Made by a program: the position numbers and the translations under genes. This document shows positions 28,370 to 63,669 of a DNA stretch of 64,000 nucleotides, piece after piece. The notes under the pieces were generated by a model. The model ran no database searches, had not been told where the DNA came from, and worked only from the letters and a program-made list of their open reading frames with translations. Within the stretch, counting starts at the first letter, position 1; every line of letters begins with the position of its first letter. The stretch comes from Malikia spinosa (lineage in GTDB: Bacteria; Pseudomonadota; Gammaproteobacteria; Burkholderiales; Burkholderiaceae_C), in assembly GCF_002980625.1 (NCBI RefSeq), contig NZ_PVLR01000030.1:1-64000 (forward strand), given 5' to 3'.

Positions 28370-30439
28370 TCAGGCTCCAACGAGGTGGGTGACTTTAATG
28401 GTCCGGCTGTCCGGCAGCTCGGCGTGCGACAGCACCTTGAGCTGCGGCAGGGTGCGGCGCAGGAAGCGTGCCAGCATGGCGCGCAGCGGCGCCGGCACCA
28501 GCAGCACCGGGGTGTAGCCCATCTGCTCCTGCAGCTGGCTGGCCTGCACGGTCTGGTTGACCAGCGTCTCGGCCAGTCCGGGCTCGATCCCGCCGCCCTC
28601 GGCGCCGCCGGTCTGCAGCGCCTGCAGCAGCAGCCGCTCGAGCCGGTGGTCCAGCGTCATGACCGGCAGCTCCTGCTGGCCCGGCACGATCTCCTGCACG
28701 ATGGCTCGGCCCAGTGCGACCCGCACTGCGGCAGTCAGGCTGTAGGCATCCAGGCTCATGGCGGCTTGCTCGATCAGGGTCTCGACGATGGTCTGCATGT
28801 CGCGGATATGCACGCCCTCGGCCAGCAGGTTCTGCAGCACCTTCTGCAGCGTCGACAGCGGCAGCAGCTTGGGTACCAGGTCCTCGAGTAGCTTGGGGCT
28901 TTCCTTGCCGAGGTGGTCGATCAGCGCCTGCAGCTCCTGGCGACCCAGCAATTCCGCCGCGTGCTGCGCCAGCAGGTGGTTCAGGTGGGTGGCCACCACG
29001 GTGCCGGCATCGACCACCGTGTAGCCCATCGACTGGGCCTGGTCGCGCATGTTTGCATCGATCCAGACTGCGGGCAAGCCAAATGCCGGATCGGTGACCG
29101 GCTGGCCCGGCAGCGGCCCCGAGACCATGCCGGGGTTGATCGCCATGAACTGGCCCGGATGCGACTCGCCGCTGCCGATCTCCACCCCCTTGAGCGTGAT
29201 GCGGTAGCCTGACGGCGGCAGCTCGAGGTTGTCGCGAATATGCACCGGCGGCGGCAGGAAGCCGACTTCCTGCGCGAACTTCTTGCGGATGCCCTTGATG
29301 CGGCGCAGCAGTTCGCCGTCCTGGCTGCTGTTGACCAGGCTGATCAGCCGGTAGCCGACCTCCAGGCCCAGGGCCTGGATCGGGCTGACGTCCTGCCAGC
29401 TGGCTTCTTCCGTCTCGGGTGCCGGCAGCGGGGCTGGTGCCGGCTCCTCGGCCTTGCGCTCGCGTGCGAGCAGCTGCGGCACATAATAGGCGCAGCCGCC
29501 GATCAGCAGCGCCAGCAGGCCGAAGGCCAGATGCGGCATGCCCGGAATCAGGCCCATGCTGCCGATGATGGCGGCCGTGATGTAGAGCACCTGCGGCTTC
29601 ATGAACAGCTGGTTGATCATCTGCGAGCCGACGTCCTGGTCGTTGGCCACGCGCGAGACCACGGCACCGGCGGCCACCGAGATGATCAGCGACGGGATCT
29701 GCGCCACCAGGCCGTCACCGATCGCCAGCAGCGTGTAGGTCTCGACGGCGCGGTCGAACGGCAGATCGTGCTGCAGCATGCCGACCAGCAGGCCGCCGAT
29801 CATGTTGACCACGGTGACCACGATGCCGGCAACCGCGTCGCCGCGCACGTATTTGCTCGCACCGTCCATCGCGCCGTAGAACTCGGCTTCCTGCGACACC
29901 TCGGTGCGGCGCTTGCGCGCCTCGGCCTCGCCGATCAGGCCGGCGTTGAGGTCGGCATCGATCGCCATCTGCTTGCCCGGCATCGCGTCGAGCGCAAAGC
30001 GTGCGCCGACCTCGGCGATCCGTCCGGCGCCCTTGGTCACGACCACGAAGTTGATCACGGTCAGGATCACGAACACCACCACGCCGATCAGGTAGTTGCC
30101 ACCGATCAGGAAGTGGCCGAAGGCCTCGATCACCTTGCCTGCCGCGTCCGGTCCGGTATGGCCATTGGTCAGCACGACCCGGGTCGAGGCCACGTTGAGC
30201 GACAGCCGCAGCATGGTCGTGATCAGCAGCACGGCCGGGAAGGCCATGAAATCGAGCGGTCGCACCGTGTAGAGCGCCGTCAGCAGCACCATGATCGACA
30301 GCGCGATGTTGAAGCTGAAGAAGATGTCGAGGATGAAGGACGACACCGGCAGGATCATCAGCGCCAGCATCATCACCACCAGCATCGGGGCGGCCAGCGC
30401 CTTGCCGTTCATGCGGCCCAGAATCAGTTTCCAGTTCAT
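28370..30439 (-). CDS. flhA: Flagellar export gate protein FlhA
   Basis: The 689-aa protein has eight membrane helices in its first 330 residues, with the FHIPEP-family hallmarks AFPAVLLITTMLRLSLNVASTR and the cytoplasmic FHIPEP loop around VVTKGAGRIAEVGARFALDAMPGKQ. The C-terminal domain (from about 345) docks export chaperones and substrates. It is the main proton-driven component of the flagellar type III export gate. It overlaps flhB by ATGA upstream and precedes flhF by 2 bp. Confidence 0.97.
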   Translation of the reverse strand: MNWKLILGRMNGKALAAPMLVVMMLALMILPVSSFILDIFFSFNIALSIMVLLTALYTVRPLDFMAFPAVLLITTMLRLSLNVASTRVVLTNGHTGPDAAGKVIEAFGHFLIGGNYLIGVVVFVILTVINFVVVTKGAGRIAEVGARFALDAMPGKQMAIDADLNAGLIGEAEARKRRTEVSQEAEFYGAMDGASKYVRGDAVAGIVVTVVNMIGGLLVGMLQHDLPFDRAVETYTLLAIGDGLVAQIPSLIISVAAGAVVSRVANDQDVGSQMINQLFMKPQVLYITAAIIGSMGLIPGMPHLAFGLLALLIGGCAYYVPQLLARERKAEEPAPAPLPAPETEEASWQDVSPIQALGLEVGYRLISLVNSSQDGELLRRIKGIRKKFAQEVGFLPPPVHIRDNLELPPSGYRITLKGVEIGSGESHPGQFMAINPGMVSGPLPGQPVTDPAFGLPAVWIDANMRDQAQSMGYTVVDAGTVVATHLNHLLAQHAAELLGRQELQALIDHLGKESPKLLEDLVPKLLPLSTLQKVLQNLLAEGVHIRDMQTIVETLIEQAAMSLDAYSLTAAVRVALGRAIVQEIVPGQQELPVMTLDHRLERLLLQALQTGGAEGGGIEPGLAETLVNQTVQASQLQEQMGYTPVLLVPAPLRAMLARFLRRTLPQLKVLSHAELPDSRTIKVTHLVGA

Positions 30440-31599
30440 GCCCGGCCTCCGGTCTCATTGTCTGCGCTCTCGAGCGGATCGAAGCCGGCCGGCAACGCGA
30501 CCGGCTCCGGGCGTATCGGCGCGAAACCGCCCTGGCTGCGGTAGGTCCGCAGCTGGAACACATAGGCCAGTATCTGTGCCACGGCGGTGTAGAGCGGCGC
30601 CGGGATTTCCTGGTCGAGTTCGGTATGGCGGTAGAGCGCGCGTGCCAGCGGCGGCGCCTCGATGATCGTGACCCCGTTGGCGGCCCCCAGCTCGCGGATG
30701 CGGGCCGCGACCTCGTCGACGCCTTTGGCCACCACCTTGGGCGCGTGGTTGCCCTGTTCCGGATATTGCAGCGCGACCGCGTAGTGGGTCGGGTTGGTCA
30801 CGATCACGTCGGCCGTCGGTACCTGCGCCATCATGCGTCTACGCGCGATGGCGCGCTGCTGGGCGCGGATCTTGGCCTTGATCTCGGGGTTGCCATCGGA
30901 CTCCTTGGCTTCGTCGCGCAGTTGCTGGCGCGTCATCATGAGCTTACGCGTGTAGCTCCACATTTGGTAGGGGCCGTCGATCAGCGCGATCACGGCCAAC
31001 GCCGCGACCAGCCCGATGAAGCAGGCCAGCAGCAGCCGGACATGTTCGGCCGTGCTCTCGCGCGGCGACTGGCTCGCGAGCGCGAGCAGGGCGTCGAGCT
31101 GCTGGCTGATCACGAACCAGGCCACGCTGCCGACCAGCAGGGTCTTGGCGATCGCCTTCAGCAGCTCGCTGAGCGAGCGCATCGACACCATGTTGGCCAG
31201 GCCCTTGAGCGGGTTGAGCTTGCTGAACTTGGGCACCAGTGCCTGGGTATGGAACAGCCAGCCGCCGATCAAGGCCGGCGAGGCCAGCGCCGCCAGCAGC
31301 AGCAGGCCCGCCATGGGCAGGAAGGCCAGCAGCAGGTCGAACAGTTGCTGGCCCCAGTCCACGCCCAGCCGTTGCGGGTCGAACAGCTGCTCGCGCTTGA
31401 ACTGCAGCCCCATCAGCAACATGTGCTTGAGCTGGCGCACCATGGCCTCGCCACTGATCCAGAAGCCAAGCGCCGCCGCTGCCAGCACCGTGAAGGTGCC
31501 GATCTCGCGTGACCTCGGCACATCACCCTGCTCGCGTGCTTTTTCTAGCTGTCGGGGTGAGGCGGGTTCTGTCTTTTCGAGGTCGCTGTCTTCTGCCAA
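30436..31599 (-). CDS. flhB: Flagellar export gate and substrate-specificity switch FlhB
   Basis: The 387-aa protein has four membrane helices and a C-terminal cytoplasmic domain with the autocleavage motif N269-P-T-H in IVTNPTHYAVAL. After hook completion the cleaved domain and FliK switch export from hook to filament proteins. I chose TTG 31599: it gives the family start (M)AEDSDLEKTEPASPRQL and has a GGAG site with 7-nt spacing; the longer frame to 31638 starts at an unlikely codon. It heads the flhB-flhA-flhF-flhG-fliA-motC-motD run and ends in an ATGA overlap. Confidence 0.95.
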   Translation of the reverse strand: MAEDSDLEKTEPASPRQLEKAREQGDVPRSREIGTFTVLAAAALGFWISGEAMVRQLKHMLLMGLQFKREQLFDPQRLGVDWGQQLFDLLLAFLPMAGLLLLAALASPALIGGWLFHTQALVPKFSKLNPLKGLANMVSMRSLSELLKAIAKTLLVGSVAWFVISQQLDALLALASQSPRESTAEHVRLLLACFIGLVAALAVIALIDGPYQMWSYTRKLMMTRQQLRDEAKESDGNPEIKAKIRAQQRAIARRRMMAQVPTADVIVTNPTHYAVALQYPEQGNHAPKVVAKGVDEVAARIRELGAANGVTIIEAPPLARALYRHTELDQEIPAPLYTAVAQILAYVFQLRTYRSQGGFAPIRPEPVALPAGFDPLESADNETGGRA

Positions 31600-31719
31600 G
31601 TGGGGGCTCCGGGGATTGAAGATTATCGCCGCCAGCAAGCAGCGCTCAGATCCGGAGCAGTACGGCTAATGAGTGTCTGCTTGCCGCTTTGGCCGCTCTC
31701 GAGCCCCCTGGCTGAACTT

Positions 31720-50843: not shown

Positions 50844-52127
50844 TCAGGCGAACAGGTTCAGCAGGCCGCCGCCCTGCGCGCGCGGCTGCACCAGGGCTTC
50901 GACCGGCTCATCCTCGGCGGCGTCGCTGCGGCGGTCCTGGCGCTGGAAGGCCGGGCGCTCACGCTCGGACTGATGCGAGCCGACATCGGCCTGCCCAAGC
51001 TCGATCCCGGCTTCGCCCAGCATGGCGCGCAGTGTCGGCAATGCATCCTGCAGCGCCTGGCGCACCTCGGGCATGGCCGAGACGAACTGCACCGTTGCCT
51101 GCTGCTGGTCGAGCTGCAGCGTGATCTGGATCGGACCCAGGTGCGGCGGATTCAGGCTCAGGCTGGCGCTTTGCAACTGGTCCCGCACCAGCCAGCTGAC
51201 CTGCTGGCTCACGGCCTGGTCCCAGCCGCGCTGGCCCAGCGGCGTCGCCACATGGCGCTGTACCGGCACCAATTCGGGCAGGCGGTCCGTTGCAGGGGTC
51301 AGGCCAGTGGCTGCGGGCAGGGCTTGGGCCAGGGCCTCGAATGCCGGCGGCGTGTCGGGCGTGTTGGTTGCAGCGCCGGTCGGGACTGCAGCGGGACGCG
51401 TCAGCTGAGGCGCGGCAGCAGCCAGCGCGCGCGCGGCAACTGCATCGAGTTGACCCGGTTCGGGTAAGTCCGGCTGCTGCTGCGCCCGCTGGCCCGGGGC
51501 ATCGGTGGTGGACTCCAGCGCGGCGGTGGATGGCGCTGCCGCCGTGTCGATCACCGGTGCGGCGGGCTGGAGTGCAGGCGCTGCTGTCGACAGCAACGCA
51601 AACGGGGGCGGGGTGCCATCGAGCTGCACGCGGTCCTGTTCGGTTTCCTTGGCTGGCGCGCTGGCGGGGTCTGCAGCCGGGGTCGCAGCATGGGACGCGA
51701 CCACTACCGGTTCACCCGCACCGGACGCGGCCAAGGCCGTCACTGGCTCGATAACGGGTTCGGCAATCGCCTGGGCAACTGCAGCCATTGCACTCGCTGC
51801 TGCAGCCAGCGGCTCGGTCACCGCCTCCGCCGGCTTGGCTGCGGTCCTGGCCCGCATCCCGTCGAGCAGGGTCAGCCAGTCGGACGGTGCGTCGTCAGCC
51901 GCTGGCTCGGCGGCATTGCCCGGTTTGAGCTTGGCCGCTGCTGGCGTGGCCGTTACCTGGGCTTTTGTGGTTTCGGACGAGTCGCCCGCTTCGGTCTGGC
52001 GCCGCAGCTCCTGCTCGAAAGACGAGCCCGAGCCGGCTTCGCGCAAGCCAGGCGTTGCCGGGCTCGTGACGCCGGCATTGGCGCTGACGCTGCCTGTCGC
52101 GGACAGGGACAAATCGTTCCAGCTCAT
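50844..52127 (-). CDS. fliK: Flagellar hook-length control protein FliK
   Basis: The 427-aa protein has a long Ala/Pro/Thr/Glu-rich N-terminal ruler region (about 40-290) and the Flg_hook C-terminal domain with SLSLNPPHLGPIQITLQLDQQQATVQFVSAMPEVRQAL split over residues 320-360. It measures the hook and triggers the FlhB switch. Its position between fliJ and fliL is standard. A second FliK-like gene lies at 58,370-59,374. Confidence 0.93.
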   Translation of the reverse strand: MSWNDLSLSATGSVSANAGVTSPATPGLREAGSGSSFEQELRRQTEAGDSSETTKAQVTATPAAAKLKPGNAAEPAADDAPSDWLTLLDGMRARTAAKPAEAVTEPLAAAASAMAAVAQAIAEPVIEPVTALAASGAGEPVVVASHAATPAADPASAPAKETEQDRVQLDGTPPPFALLSTAAPALQPAAPVIDTAAAPSTAALESTTDAPGQRAQQQPDLPEPGQLDAVAARALAAAAPQLTRPAAVPTGAATNTPDTPPAFEALAQALPAATGLTPATDRLPELVPVQRHVATPLGQRGWDQAVSQQVSWLVRDQLQSASLSLNPPHLGPIQITLQLDQQQATVQFVSAMPEVRQALQDALPTLRAMLGEAGIELGQADVGSHQSERERPAFQRQDRRSDAAEDEPVEALVQPRAQGGGLLNLFA

Positions 52128-58074: not shown

Positions 58075-58386
58075 TCAGTGACCTTTTTGCGGCAGTTTGG
58101 CCGCCGGTTTTTTCGAGGGTGGCAGCGCCGCCTCGATCCGGTACAGCCAGGCCAGCAGTTCCGCCACCACCCGGTACAGTTGGGGCGGCACCTCGCGGTC
58201 GAGTTCGACCTCACTCAGCAGCGCGACCAGTTCGCGCGACTCGTGCACATAGACACCATGCTCGCGCGCCAGTGCAACGATGTTGTCGGCCACGGCGCCC
58301 TTGCCCGTGGCCACTACCTTGGGCGCCTTGCCGCCCTGGTAGGCCAGGGCGACCGCCTGGCGCATGGCCTCAGGCTTGCGGCTCAT
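58075..58386 (-). CDS. Stand-alone FlhB C-terminal-like protein (EscU/YscU/FlhB family)
   Basis: The 103-aa protein aligns by eye to the part of FlhB after the cleavage site: here AVALAYQGGKAPKVVATGKG, and in the full FlhB of this window AVALQYPEQGNHAPKVVAKG. It then matches VALAREHGVYVHESREL and the REVPPQLYRVVAELLAWLY end. It lacks the membrane helices and the NPTH autocleavage motif. Such short paralogues exist in other bacteria and can replace the cleaved fragment. It overlaps the upstream FliK-like gene by 17 bp, so the two are coupled. Confidence 0.88.
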   Translation of the reverse strand: MSRKPEAMRQAVALAYQGGKAPKVVATGKGAVADNIVALAREHGVYVHESRELVALLSEVELDREVPPQLYRVVAELLAWLYRIEAALPPSKKPAAKLPQKGH

Positions 58387-59374
58387 TGGGGATTGCACCG
58401 GATTCCACCGCGTCAGGCGGTAGCGCATCGCGCTGGACCAGGAAGCCGCCCAGCACCGTGCCGGCGGCTGCCAGCGCATCGTCGAGCCGGCCCTGGTCGG
58501 CCTGCAGTGCAGCGGCGGCGGCCTCATCCAGCACGCGCAGCCGTACCTGGGCCTGCTCGCCCTGCAGGCGGATGGTGGCATTGACCTGGCCGAGCTGCGG
58601 CAGCTCCAGCTTCAACACCGTCTCCCAGGCCGCCGGCTGGCCTGGCTCGCGTGGCTGCTGTTGCTGGTCCTTTTCCTGTACCAGCTCCCACTCCATCGGC
58701 TGGCCGGGCCAGAGCTCGCCTTGCCAGACTAGGCGGCGCTGCTCCAGCGTGTCGAGTTGCTGCGGCAGCAATTGCGCCGCCAGTGCATCGCCACCGGGGC
58801 GGTTCTGCGGCTCCTGCCTGATCTGGTCCAGCGTGCGTTCGCCGCGGCTCCATTGCTCGAGATGGGACTCGTAGAACAGCCCACTGCCTTCCAGCGACTG
58901 TTGCAGGTTCTGTGTCAGCTGAGCCACCTCGGCGCCAGGCGTGGCCTGCAGCGGTGCGCTGCCTTGCAGCGGGCGTGCCGGTTGTCCGGCTTCTGACTGC
59001 AGCAGTCGGCCGATCAGCTCGCCGGCTGCGCTGAAATGGGTCTGCACCGAGCCGTTCTGACCCTGCAGGCCGAAGGTCAGCCTGGGCTCGCGTGCCAGCA
59101 ACGTCAGCGCCAGCGTGTCGCCGACGGCAAAACCCGCTGGCAGTTGCAGGCGCAACTCGAGCGGGCGAGCTGGCGGCGCTTCGCTGCCGAACCGTACCAG
59201 CGCGCTGCCGTCGCTGAGCGCAGCCTGCACCTTGCCCTGCAGCGTGCGTCCGATCTCGACCTGCTCCAGCCGCGCGGCACCGTCCTGGCGCGGATCGGCC
59301 ACCACCGTGGTCGCGCGCAGGGTGCTGACCGCAGTGACCTGGGCCGCAGCAGCCGAATCTAGCCGGGGCAGCAT
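58370..59374 (-). CDS. Second FliK-like protein (Flg_hook C-terminal domain)
   Basis: The 334-aa protein is rich in Gln, Leu and Ala. Its N-terminal third contains a beta-like IGRTLQGKVQAALSDGSALV segment, and its C-terminal third resembles the Flg_hook domain (LKLELPQLGQVNATIRLQGE, QVRLRVLDEAAAAALQADQ, then LDDALAAAGTVLGGFLV). It is not the canonical FliK, which is at 50,844-52,127. Coupling to a stand-alone FlhB C-terminal-like gene suggests a paired role in export control. It lies 39 bp downstream of fliT in the late operon. Confidence 0.82.
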   Translation of the reverse strand: MLPRLDSAAAAQVTAVSTLRATTVVADPRQDGAARLEQVEIGRTLQGKVQAALSDGSALVRFGSEAPPARPLELRLQLPAGFAVGDTLALTLLAREPRLTFGLQGQNGSVQTHFSAAGELIGRLLQSEAGQPARPLQGSAPLQATPGAEVAQLTQNLQQSLEGSGLFYESHLEQWSRGERTLDQIRQEPQNRPGGDALAAQLLPQQLDTLEQRRLVWQGELWPGQPMEWELVQEKDQQQQPREPGQPAAWETVLKLELPQLGQVNATIRLQGEQAQVRLRVLDEAAAAALQADQGRLDDALAAAGTVLGGFLVQRDALPPDAVESGAIPNEPQA

Positions 59375-59413: not shown

Positions 59414-59749
59414 TCAGAAGCCACCGTAGGCTTGCTCGAGCTTGCGCTGCTGGCCGGTGTTCTGGATCAGGCCCTGCAGCCGCTGCAGCCAGGGCTGGGT
59501 GATGTCGCGGATGGCGCGGTCATCGTCGAGGATCTGGCGCAGCATCTGCACCTTGCGCTCGCGCAATTCGGCACTCAGCGAAGCCACTGGTGGCTGGCCG
59601 CCACTGCGCAGCAGGCCGACCTCGTGCGCGCAGCGCGATTCCAGCTCGGACAACTGGTCCCAGTCCGAAGCCTGGGCCGCCAGCAGCATCTGGCGCGTCA
59701 GGCTCGATACGTTTTCGTAGATGCCCAGCACCTGTTCGGCATTCAGCAT
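59414..59749 (-). CDS. fliT: Flagellar chaperone FliT-like protein
   Basis: The 111-aa helical protein is placed after fliD and fliS, where FliT, the export chaperone of the cap protein FliD, is expected. The segments LGIYENVSSLTRQMLLAAQASDWDQL split across the first 32 residues, and QMLRQILDDDRAIRDITQPW, match FliT-type proteins. FliT also restrains early gene activators in some bacteria. It lies 2 bp after fliS. Confidence 0.87.
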   Translation of the reverse strand: MLNAEQVLGIYENVSSLTRQMLLAAQASDWDQLSELESRCAHEVGLLRSGGQPPVASLSAELRERKVQMLRQILDDDRAIRDITQPWLQRLQGLIQNTGQQRKLEQAYGGF

Positions 59750-59751
59750 GG

Positions 59752-60213
59752 TCAGGCCTTCACGCTGGCAAAGACCTGGCCGCTGGCAGCCTGGCCGGCA
59801 CTGACTTCGGCGCGTGCCGCCGCCTGCGGGTCGATCGCGTCCCAGGCCGACTTCAGCTGGCTCAGCAGACCGTGGACTTCTTGCAGGATGGCCGGGTCGT
59901 TCTTCAGGTGCGCCTGCGCCAGCTGCTGCGTCATGTAGCCGTAGAGCGCGTCGAGGTTCTCTGCCACCTCGCCACCCGCCTTGAGGTTCAGGCTGGCGTG
60001 CAGCCCGCTGTCGATGATGCTGATGGCCTTGGAAATGGCCTGGCCCTTTTCCGCGATCTGCCCGGCCTGCATGTGGTTTTGTGCCCGCAGGATCGCGATC
60101 ATCGCGCCCTCGAACAGCATGGCAATCAGCTTGTGCGGGCTGGCCGCCGTCACGCCGGTTTCCAGTCCCACCCGGGCATAGGCCTTGGCGGCCGATCGGT
60201 TCGATCCAAACAT
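59752..60213 (-). CDS. fliS: Flagellin export chaperone FliS
   Basis: The 153-aa protein has the FliS segments AAKAYARVGLETGVTAASPHKLI (split at residue 20), MLFEGAMIAILRAQNHMQ, and the LDALYGYMTQQLAQAHLKND helix. It binds the C-terminal helix of flagellin to prevent premature polymerisation. It follows fliD by 30 bp and is co-oriented with fliC. Confidence 0.95.
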   Translation of the reverse strand: MFGSNRSAAKAYARVGLETGVTAASPHKLIAMLFEGAMIAILRAQNHMQAGQIAEKGQAISKAISIIDSGLHASLNLKAGGEVAENLDALYGYMTQQLAQAHLKNDPAILQEVHGLLSQLKSAWDAIDPQAAARAEVSAGQAASGQVFASVKA

Positions 60214-60243: not shown

Positions 60244-62244
60244 CTAGTTGCTGTTGTTGGCCAGAGCCGTCAGCTGGGTGGTCAGGTAGGCCGTAGTCGA
60301 GTTCATGCTGCTCATCGTCGTGTCCAGCTTGGTGAACTGGTCCTGGTACTGCTTCTGGATTCGGCCCAGCTTGGCTTCGAGGTTGAGCTTGTCGCTGTCG
60401 AGCTTCTTGAGTGAACTGTTGATGCCGTCGGTGCGCATCGAGATCATGCCATTTTCACCCAGGAAACTGCTGGCCAATTGATCGAGTTGGTAGGCAAATC
60501 CCTGGCTGTATTGCACATTGCCACGCGCGCCCGTGCTGCCGTTGCTGACCGAGACCTTCAGCCCCTCGGCCGCATTGCCGCTGGCGCCGGTCAGGGTCTG
60601 GCCCAGGCTGGTCGCGGCAGCGCCGTTGATCTGGCCCGTCAGCGCCAGACCCGTTGTTGCGCTGCCTGTGCCGCCCAGCAGCAGGCTGGCCGCCGTACCG
60701 CCCAGGCTGATGCTGGAGCTGGAGCCAAAACGGTTGGACAGCATGCTCAGCACCCCACTGGCGTCGGCGCTGATGGTCACAGCCGAGCCGGCCTGGGTGA
60801 AGGTCGAATTGCCGTTGATGCGGGTCTGCAGGTCACTGACCAGTTCGCTGGTCGAGGCATAGCTGCCATCGCGCAGATTGATGTTGGCACTCAGGCCGTC
60901 GAGCGACACCTGCAGCGCGTTGTTGCCACCGCTGTAGTCCAGGCTGGCCGCGCCCGAGCCGGTCTGGCTGCCCTGGGTCGCCAGTTGACTGACTTCCAGC
61001 GCATAGCTGCCGGACTGGGTCTTGGCAGTAGAGCCGACATAGCTGACCTGGCTGTCAGTGCTGGCGCCACTGGCCGCGAACAGCCCCGGCAGCTGGTCGA
61101 ACTGGGTGTCGATGACCTTTTGCAGCTTAGTGGCGTCGAGCTTGAGCGTGCCGTCGGCCTGGTAGGACACACCGACATCGCTGAGCCGGGTCAGGCTGCT
61201 GGCGCCGCCCGTGACGGTGCCGGTGACCACGCCGCGCAGCTGGGTCAGCATGTTGCGCACCGACGAGTCGCCGTACAGTGCTGCCCCCTTCTTGCTTTCC
61301 ATGTTGTAGCTGGTCAGGCTTTTCAGCGAGCCCGTCAGCTTGTTGTAGCCGTCAACGAATTCCTGCACATTGGCCTTGACCGCATCGGTGTCGCGCGTCA
61401 CCGACAGGTTGGTCGGGCTGCCGGCGTTGGTTTTCTTCAACGTCAGCGTCACGCCAGGCACTACGTCGCTGAAGCTGTTGCTGGGCTTGCTGATGTCGAG
61501 GCCGTCGACCTTGAGCGCAGCGTTCTGCGCCGCCACCGTCTGCGTCAGCGCCTGGCTGCCAGATGGATCGTGGTTCAGCAGGTTGCCGAGTGCCGCGTCG
61601 CCGCTGACCGAGATCTTCATGCTGCTGGCTTCGCCGGTCTGGCTGTTGCTTAAAGCGAGCCGGTAGGGCGTGTTGCTGCCGTCGTTGATGATGCTGGCCG
61701 TCACGCCGATGCTGGCGGAATTGATCGCGTCGCGGATGCCGTTGAGCGTGTTGTTGCTGCTGTCGATCGTGACTTGCTTGCTGCCCGCGCCGTTGCTGCT
61801 AAAAGCCGAACCGCTGTACTTGCCATCGGTGCCCAGGGTGCCGCCGCTGATGGTGCCGAAGTCGAAGGTCAGCGTGCCGGTGCCGACCACCGCCTGGGCA
61901 TTGAGCTGACCGGCGCTGGCGAGCTTTTGCGACTGTGCCAGCTTGGTGACCTCGATCGAATAGTCGCCCGGCACCGCACCGGCGCCGCCGCTGGTGCCCA
62001 GCACGGCGGTATCGGCCACCGTGGCCTTGATAGTCTGCAGGTTCTTCGGGTCGCTGAGCTTCTTGAGCGTGCTCTGGAAGCTGGAGATTCCGCTCTGGAT
62101 GCTGCCGAAGGCGCTCAACTTGGCCCTGTAGTCGCTCTGCTTGGTGGTCAGCGCAGTCAGCGGCCTTTGCTCGATCGACATCAACTGTGACACGATGTTG
62201 GTCACGTCCAGGCCCGAGCCTATGCCGGCGGAAGAAAGTCCCAT
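60244..62244 (-). CDS. fliD: Flagellar filament cap protein FliD (HAP2)
   Basis: The 666-aa protein is well above the roughly 450-480 aa of enteric FliD. It has the N-terminal GLSSAGIGSGLDVTNIVSQL and coiled coil, and the C-terminal GMISMRTDGINSSLKKLD with its coiled coil. A YSIEVTKLAQSQKL segment near residue 95 is echoed by YALEVSQLATQG near residue 414, inside an insertion of about 180 residues (400-580) rich in Ser, Gly, Thr and Ala. It caps and guides flagellin polymerisation and has a surface that can bind receptors. Confidence 0.95.
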   Translation of the reverse strand: MGLSSAGIGSGLDVTNIVSQLMSIEQRPLTALTTKQSDYRAKLSAFGSIQSGISSFQSTLKKLSDPKNLQTIKATVADTAVLGTSGGAGAVPGDYSIEVTKLAQSQKLASAGQLNAQAVVGTGTLTFDFGTISGGTLGTDGKYSGSAFSSNGAGSKQVTIDSSNNTLNGIRDAINSASIGVTASIINDGSNTPYRLALSNSQTGEASSMKISVSGDAALGNLLNHDPSGSQALTQTVAAQNAALKVDGLDISKPSNSFSDVVPGVTLTLKKTNAGSPTNLSVTRDTDAVKANVQEFVDGYNKLTGSLKSLTSYNMESKKGAALYGDSSVRNMLTQLRGVVTGTVTGGASSLTRLSDVGVSYQADGTLKLDATKLQKVIDTQFDQLPGLFAASGASTDSQVSYVGSTAKTQSGSYALEVSQLATQGSQTGSGAASLDYSGGNNALQVSLDGLSANINLRDGSYASTSELVSDLQTRINGNSTFTQAGSAVTISADASGVLSMLSNRFGSSSSISLGGTAASLLLGGTGSATTGLALTGQINGAAATSLGQTLTGASGNAAEGLKVSVSNGSTGARGNVQYSQGFAYQLDQLASSFLGENGMISMRTDGINSSLKKLDSDKLNLEAKLGRIQKQYQDQFTKLDTTMSSMNSTTAYLTTQLTALANNSN

Positions 62245-62275: not shown

Positions 62276-62686
62276 TCAGGCCTTGGTGTCGACCAGCAGA
62301 CCGCTGCGCTTGAGTTCCGGCTCGCGGCTCAGCTTGAGCGCTTCCTCGCTCGGAATCTGCCGGATCACGGTGTCGTTGGCAATGTCCATCAACTGGATCA
62401 CGAGCCTGCCACTCTCGTCATCGACATTGAATCGTACTCCTGCACTGACCGGCTTGAGCTGTTCGTTGAGTTTTTCCACCGCCTCCCGGATTTCCTGTGC
62501 CGATTCCGGCTTGTCTGGCGCTGGCGGGTCGGTTTTGGCCGTGGCGCCGTTGCGAGCCAGCGGATCGGATTCTGTGCTGGTCTGGGTGGGCTGGACCGGC
62601 CGCTCGATGACGGGCTGCCAGGTGGGAGCCATGCGAACCGTGGCGGGCAGGCTGCCTGGGTTGGTAGTGATGGGGGATATGGACAT
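62276..62686 (-). CDS. flaG: FlaG-family flagellar protein
   Basis: The 136-aa protein has a variable polar first half and the conserved FlaG domain: IREAVEKLNEQLKPVSAGVRF, NVDDESGRLVIQLMDIANDTV and IRQIPSEEALKLS. FlaG proteins are found between fliC and fliD and influence filament length. Here it lies downstream of the fliC terminator and 31 bp upstream of fliD, so read-through or its own promoter is needed; I see no clear sigma-28 element just upstream. Confidence 0.93.
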   Translation of the reverse strand: MSISPITTNPGSLPATVRMAPTWQPVIERPVQPTQTSTESDPLARNGATAKTDPPAPDKPESAQEIREAVEKLNEQLKPVSAGVRFNVDDESGRLVIQLMDIANDTVIRQIPSEEALKLSREPELKRSGLLVDTKA

Positions 62687-62805: not shown

Positions 62806-63669
62806 TTAGCCCAGCAGTCGCATCACGCCGTTGGGCAGCTGATTGGCCTGACCCAGCATCGCCGTGCTGGCCTGCTGCAGGATCTGGTTGCGCGCCAGGT
62901 TGGCGGTTTCCGACGCGAAGTCGGTGTCCATGATCCGGCTGCGGGCGGCAGACTGGTTCTCGTTCGAAACCTGCAGCGTCGAGATCACCGAGCTCATGCG
63001 GTTCTGTGCTGCACCGTGGATGGTCTGCTGACCAGAAACTTCCTTCAGCGCCAGGTCGATCTGGTCGATCGCTGCGCTAGCCTTGGCGACGTCCGTGATG
63101 TCAAAGGTCGAAGTGGTCTGGTCCGCGTCGATGGCGAGCTTCGAGGTTTCGCTCTTGGTCGCAGCGGTCGTGCTCAGGTCGGTGCCCTTGATTTCAATCT
63201 GGTTGTCAGCAGTGGTGTTCGAGCCGATCTGGAACTTCTGCGAGGCACCGTCACCCAGCACCTTCAGACCGTTGAACTCGGTGTTCTTGGTGACACGGCC
63301 GATTTCTGCCTGCAGTTCCTTGAACTCGGTGTCCATCGCGGTACGCTGATCGCTGCTGTTGGTGCCGTTGGCCGACTGCACGGCCAGTTCACGCATGCGC
63401 TGCATGGTGTCGCTGACCTTGCCGAGCGCGCCTTCAGTGGTCTGGCTGAACGAGATCGCGTCGTTGGCGTTACGCATGGCAACCGACTGGCCGCGCACGG
63501 TCTTGTCCATGCCGGTGGCGATGGCCAGACCGGCGGCGTCGTCCTTGGCGCCGTTGACGCGCAGGCCCGAAGACAGGCGCTGGACCGAGGTGTTCAGTGC
63601 AGTTTGTGCGGTGCCCAGGCTGCGCTGAGCCTGCATCGACGACAGGTTGGTGTTGATGTAAGAAGCCAT
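62806..63669 (-). CDS. fliC: Flagellin FliC (short type)
   Basis: The 287-aa protein is a short flagellin. It starts MASYINTNLSSMQAQRSLGT, has the conserved VQRLSSGLRVNGAKDDAAGL, and the C-terminal NRMSSVISTLQVSNENQSAA and LARNQILQQASTAMLGQANQ segments. Between them only about 90 residues form the variable part (ASQKFQIGSNTTADNQIEIK and onward), so domains D2/D3 are nearly absent. GGAG with 7-nt spacing precedes the ATG. A sigma-28 promoter and a structured leader lie upstream, and a strong terminator follows. Confidence 0.97.
   Translation of the reverse strand: MASYINTNLSSMQAQRSLGTAQTALNTSVQRLSSGLRVNGAKDDAAGLAIATGMDKTVRGQSVAMRNANDAISFSQTTEGALGKVSDTMQRMRELAVQSANGTNSSDQRTAMDTEFKELQAEIGRVTKNTEFNGLKVLGDGASQKFQIGSNTTADNQIEIKGTDLSTTAATKSETSKLAIDADQTTSTFDITDVAKASAAIDQIDLALKEVSGQQTIHGAAQNRMSSVISTLQVSNENQSAARSRIMDTDFASETANLARNQILQQASTAMLGQANQLPNGVMRLLG

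Follow-up and report, generated by a model that had tools for sequence, protein, structure and literature searches.

A FliK-like protein (KLP) and a free-standing FlhB tail (FBC) are encoded by overlapping genes behind the late flagellar genes of Malikia spinosa, and the conclusion that the two form a conserved partnership is well supported by our comparative analyses. Well over a hundred genomes show these two genes in this order, which makes the pair more than a product of chance; it is real, old and widespread, and is not peculiar to this genome. The reading that we prefer, though tentatively, is that the pair may well be an old two-gene soluble accessory of flagellar type III export, made up of a spare FlhB-CC look-alike and a dedicated, folded FliK-family partner.

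Gene order and identities in the late flagellar operon

The window, i.e., the whole stretch of 64,000 nucleotides that was analysed, carries on its minus strand the gene order fliC-flaG-fliD-fliS-fliT, followed by KLP and FBC. All five of the preceding genes, behind which an earlier note made from the sequence alone had placed the pair, were backed by Pfam matches: fliC (62806..63669; Flagellin_N and Flagellin_C), flaG (62276..62686; FlaG, 4.1e-19), fliD (60244..62244; FliD_N and FliD_C), fliS (59752..60213; FliS, 3.1e-38) and fliT, which directly precedes KLP (59414..59749; FliT, 4.7e-23). From flaG to KLP the intergenic gaps are short, at 2 to 39 bases. The KLP gene (58370..59374, minus strand) encodes 334 aa and the FBC gene (58075..58386, minus strand) 103 aa, and they overlap by 17 bp (58370..58386), with open reading frames, coordinates and overlap all as previously described. 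The canonical fliK (50844..52127, minus strand; Flg_hook, 4.1e-22) and a full-length flhB with NPTH (30436..31638, minus strand; Bac_export_2, 9.6e-123), which the earlier note had also located elsewhere in the window, were both found there as genes separate from the pair; this fliK matched NCBIfam NF007514 at 9.1e-28, under the cut-off of that model.

FBC resembles only the tail of FlhB

The claim that the 103-aa protein resembles solely the part of FlhB after NPTH was borne out. FBC matched Pfam Bac_export_2 at 7.4e-17 and 62 bits (curated cut-off 24.4) solely over model positions 262-335, its alignment to FlhB begins just past the PTH of NPTH, and both the four-helix membrane domain and the NPTH autocleavage site of full FlhB are absent from it. 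Likewise, NPTH occurred in none of the 168 stand-alone frames examined. FBC also matched the FlhB-CC chain 3B0Z_B in a profile comparison (2.6e-20), and its structural model, of modest confidence (pLDDT 71), arranges strands and helices in the order seen in CC. Against NCBIfam TIGR00789 (flhB_rel) it scored 4.1e-27 and 94.2 bits, below the curated cut-off of 117.35, which was passed by none of the 210 genomes in the profile search. The counterpart in Malikia granosa, the nearest named genome, is 94% identical.

In Salmonella FlhB, the early-substrate pocket is defined by A286/P287/A341/L344 (PMC9307174). With the Salmonella numbering mapped by hand from the alignment, the equivalents in FBC are A21, P22, A75 and L78, i.e., the same four residues, and they are kept in 129, 138, 138 and 127 of 138 FBC sequences, respectively, although they may be kept for folding alone. 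Salmonella FlhB cannot do without its beta2-beta3 loop (PMC3640470); a shorter loop in the tails (mostly 5 vs 6 residues) was considered as a distinguishing trait and set aside, as the difference is too small and just 11 FlhB sequences were compared.

The retention of this pocket and of FlhB-CC sequence means that FBC could have the same ligands as FlhB-CC, and every pair-bearing genome among the 60 relatives surveyed also has a full-length FlhB. Both observations would suit a role of FBC as an anti-switch decoy that draws canonical FliK or early substrates away from FlhB-CC and so tunes the timing or sharpness of the switch, with KLP controlling its availability. However, a simple decoy would hardly be expected to need a FliK-family partner of its own, and the operon in the window consists of late, post-switch genes; we regard a decoy as unlikely.

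KLP carries a FliK-type switch domain but differs from ruler proteins

As had been proposed, the upstream gene has a FliK-type C-terminal domain: a Flg_hook/T3S4 switch domain was matched over residues 244-315 (58430..58645, minus strand; Pfam, 7e-15, 55.1 bits vs a cut-off of 29.8). Profile matches to the FliK core 2RRL (1.6e-8) and to PscP 5CUK (1.1e-4) agree with this assignment, and in the fold search of the C-terminal domain 5CUK and 2RRL ranked at the top, with modest Z values (6.4 and 6.2) and Foldseek E values of 0.006 and 0.011.

The AF2 prediction for KLP has a mean pLDDT of 83, with values below 50 at residues 1-17 and 109-114 only, and is laid out as barrel strands (44-104), helices (116-212) and a C-terminal domain (214-315). 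The N-terminal part (residues 27-107; 59054..59296, minus strand) is predicted to form a small beta-barrel with an OB/S1-like arrangement, for which the fold search returned middling S1/OB-type matches (Z about 5-6). Within the helical middle lies the motif GLFYESH (residues 165-171; 58862..58882, minus strand). In an alignment of 55 KLP sequences, 11 columns were invariant, including GxFYExH (G165, F167, Y168, E169 and H171) and E188, and the invariant stretch can be written more fully as GLFYESH...EPQ. The motif, which is specific to the family, was present in 53 of the 55 and was not found in the canonical FliK of the window or of six other genomes. The combined share of Pro, Ala, Ser, Thr, Gly and Gln is 0.52 in KLP vs 0.60 in the FliK of the window. 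Unlike the canonical FliK ruler, KLP is predicted to have no long flexible ruler or linker N-terminal to its switch domain. KLP differs from ruler proteins, on the evidence of this model, in its predicted folded state and its private motif.

The two genes are nearly always found together

The earlier note had singled out the coupling of the two genes as the notable part, and the co-occurrence survey indeed puts KLP and FBC together. In a set made up of 60 relatives and the window's own genome, a stand-alone tail was found in 24, and a FliK-like frame lies directly upstream on the same strand in 24/24, a count that includes the KLP of G052, which matched Flg_hook at 5.2e-4, under the curated cut-off. 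Genomes with full-length FlhB alone mostly have a single Flg_hook gene; the exceptions with at least two clear matches, G011 and G027, both also have two full-length FlhB, and a few other tail-less genomes have an extra weak, short match. The pair of the Burkholderiales genome G052 (L023) belongs to a subtype other than the local one: its KLP is without GLFYESH and its FBC without the matching histidine.

Among 80 named genomes, 77 harbor the pair, mostly as fliC-flaG-fliD-fliS-fliT-KLP-FBC near fliE and fliF. The three without an adjacent pair are L077 and two Accumulibacter genomes, in which KLP is preceded by fliS, while FBC stands beside a YcgR gene some 12 kb off, presumably on the same contig to judge by matching contig numbers and lengths, with the KLP motif retained. 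L077 provided the sole frame containing both proteins, and it was rejected as a natural fusion, being in a locus with many apparently frameshift-split genes. Across the phylum, 41 of 60 loci have the pair by profile. In 11 others the upstream gene is shorter, yet its alignment, modestly supported (E 8e-5, probability 60%), spans the full length of the KLP profile; no Pfam match was obtained for the four of these diverged genes that were tested. Some genomes (L136/L137, L143/L144 and L161/L162) have two stand-alone tails each; as a rule, one of the two is accompanied by a long KLP, and the other either by a KLP-like gene that is short and diverged or by no such gene.

The subtypes of KLP and FBC matched in 136 of 138 pairs, a matching that follows clades. 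A search for direct KLP-FBC contacts by covariation (138 pairs, effective number 112) was discarded, as its top signals also follow clades. No viral relatives were found, and one phage-family match was dismissed because its profile is full-length FlhB-like.

The near-constant pairing, the joint presence and absence of the two genes and their retention even about 12 kb apart in Accumulibacter support an accessory module; the 8 of 60 phylum loci in which no FliK-like gene lies upstream count against it. The pair is absent from most genomes of the family to which the window belongs, including many that have flagella, and is thus not essential.

Genomic neighbourhoods

A late-acting export checkpoint had been suggested from the position of the pair, and this part of the earlier interpretation is weakly supported. 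The place behind fliC-flaG-fliD-fliS-fliT is conserved in many Betaproteobacteria, as would be expected if the pair acted past the hook-filament switch, e.g., on filament-type export. However, its position differs elsewhere, where it lies outside the flagellar cluster: the pair adjoins ccmA in Pseudomonas aeruginosa, is flanked by rnhB and sucC in Bacillus velezensis (ylqF-rnhB-(pair)-sucCD), stands beside RNase R in Acidithiobacillus, and in the Burkholderiales genome G047 is next to what we take, from reading the ORF, to be a glnD-like gene. A second, late checkpoint is accordingly rather improbable. In Geomonas, the pair, again outside the flagellar cluster, is found beside an RND transporter. 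Just upstream of the pair in G065 (L146:4498-5067), a DUF2802-like protein is encoded (1.2e-6, under the Pfam cut-off).

Of 64 longer loci (among L036-L115), 41 have a PilZ/YcgR-like gene after FBC, and a PilZ gene is located near the Acidithiobacillus pair, observations that would fit a role of the pair in linking c-di-GMP signalling, by way of the neighbouring proteins, with export or motor function. There is, however, no PilZ/YcgR-like match in the window, and the annotation around the pair in Pseudomonas and in Bacillus lists no such gene. As YcgR acts at the flagellar motor, this neighbourhood may simply reflect the clustering of flagellar genes, and we consider the coupling very doubtful.

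Age and origin of the pair

In a tree of CC domains with 49 rows, one branch (support 100/97) parts the stand-alone tails, which came from Proteobacteria, Geomonas and Bacillus, from the tails of full-length FlhB. One row on the FlhB side labelled SOLO is a 387-aa FlhB with NPEH that was mislabelled by the NPT rule. With its root not fixed and few columns, the tree supports a separation from host FlhB rather than a single origin of the tails. Judged from these sequences, FBC is an old paralogue distinct from the host's own FlhB, and a recent local duplication of fliK and flhB is ruled out by the tree. The earlier description of the pair as a duplicated, membrane-free copy of the switch therefore holds in one respect, as FBC has neither a membrane part nor NPTH, and fails in another, as the tree and the architecture and motif of KLP indicate that the pair was not copied from the host's own fliK and flhB.

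The pair might also be a functionless relic of a duplicated fliK/flhB locus, given that it has been lost in many flagellated relatives in which the flagellar genes were retained. Such decay is hard to reconcile with the invariant residues kept in KLP and FBC across wide divergence and with the joint retention of the two even when unlinked, which makes a relic highly improbable.

The FlhA of the window (28370-30439) is 78% identical to that of Methylobacter-type Gammaproteobacteria and 75% to that of Janthinobacterium, whereas its identity to the remaining full-length hits within its family is 56-59%. This pattern points to horizontal acquisition of the flagellar cluster, which may explain the rarity of the pair in the family.

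A possible reloading step in flagellar export

The stand-alone tail HP1575 of H. pylori reportedly serves as a 'spare part' upon deletion of CC, according to the title of a 2006 paper by Wand et al. that is cited in PMC3040844. In Salmonella, the switch flips when FlhB-CC is lost in a FliK-dependent manner, and early substrates fail to be secreted once CC is missing (PMC13344023). On the basis of these two reports, we propose that a reloading step may complement our preferred reading of the pair as an export accessory. The T3S4 domain of KLP would bind free FBC, as FliK binds FlhB-CC, and KLP would hold and deliver it; once FliK has removed FlhB-CC, FBC would sit on FlhB-CN in place of CC as a spare part, and its presence there would restore or keep the acceptance of early substrates at export gates. 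The flexible linker of FliK is needed for efficient FlhB binding (PMC6972891), and KLP, as modelled, seems to be without a linker of this type. The location of the window's pair in a late-gene operon counts against the proposal, as a reset of early export might be expected earlier. In a bolder form, FlhB-CC would be an exchangeable cartridge: after its ejection by FliK, KLP would reload a soluble CC, making the hook-to-filament switch reversible or resettable. We think it unlikely that the system goes this far.

What makes the export gate change its specificity has been asked for a long time, and a recent proposal names the removal of FlhB-CC by FliK as the trigger of the switch. A widely conserved pair providing both a free FlhB-CC look-alike and a FliK-family partner for it would matter for the question of whether CC removal is one-way.

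Comparison with known systems

Stand-alone FlhB tails are already known, as the earlier note rightly stated, and so is the automatic annotation of both genes in Pseudomonas. The literature searched, which did not include most subscription papers, yielded no study that treats the two genes as a unit. Among the published statements that we found, the one nearest to the pairing is 'flhX-fliK' of Nitratiruptor, named together in passing as flagellar genes outside the main cluster (PMC9321776), of which the fliK may be the canonical gene or a second FliK-like gene.

The tails of the FlhX, HP1575 (FlhB2) and YlqH type are, like FBC, soluble, equal to FlhB after the cleavage site, and present beside a full-length flhB. 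The Bacillus YlqH-type example (L035) likewise follows a weakly FliK-like gene; YlqG itself was not accepted as a FliK relative, its match being only weak (E 0.0095, probability 4%) and without Flg_hook. We know of no FliK-like neighbour of HP1575. Unlike formal flhB_rel members, FBC remains under the TIGR00789 cut-off. Compared to full FlhB, FBC shares the CC fold and the pocket, but is without the membrane domain, the CN part and NPTH.

KLP has the switch domain in common with FliK/YscP (T3S4) proteins, from which it differs in being predicted to be mostly ordered and in its extra motif. In Pseudomonas aeruginosa, where the two genes are annotated as FliK and an EscU/YscU/HrcU family protein, the FliK-like gene overlaps the stand-alone FlhB tail by 4 bp, as the genes in the window do by 17 bp; that pair, however, is outside the flagellar cluster, and where the KLP of the window reads SGLFYESH, its KLP reads SGLFLEAR. 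What may be unfamiliar to a specialist is how general the pairing is and that KLP has a motif of its own.
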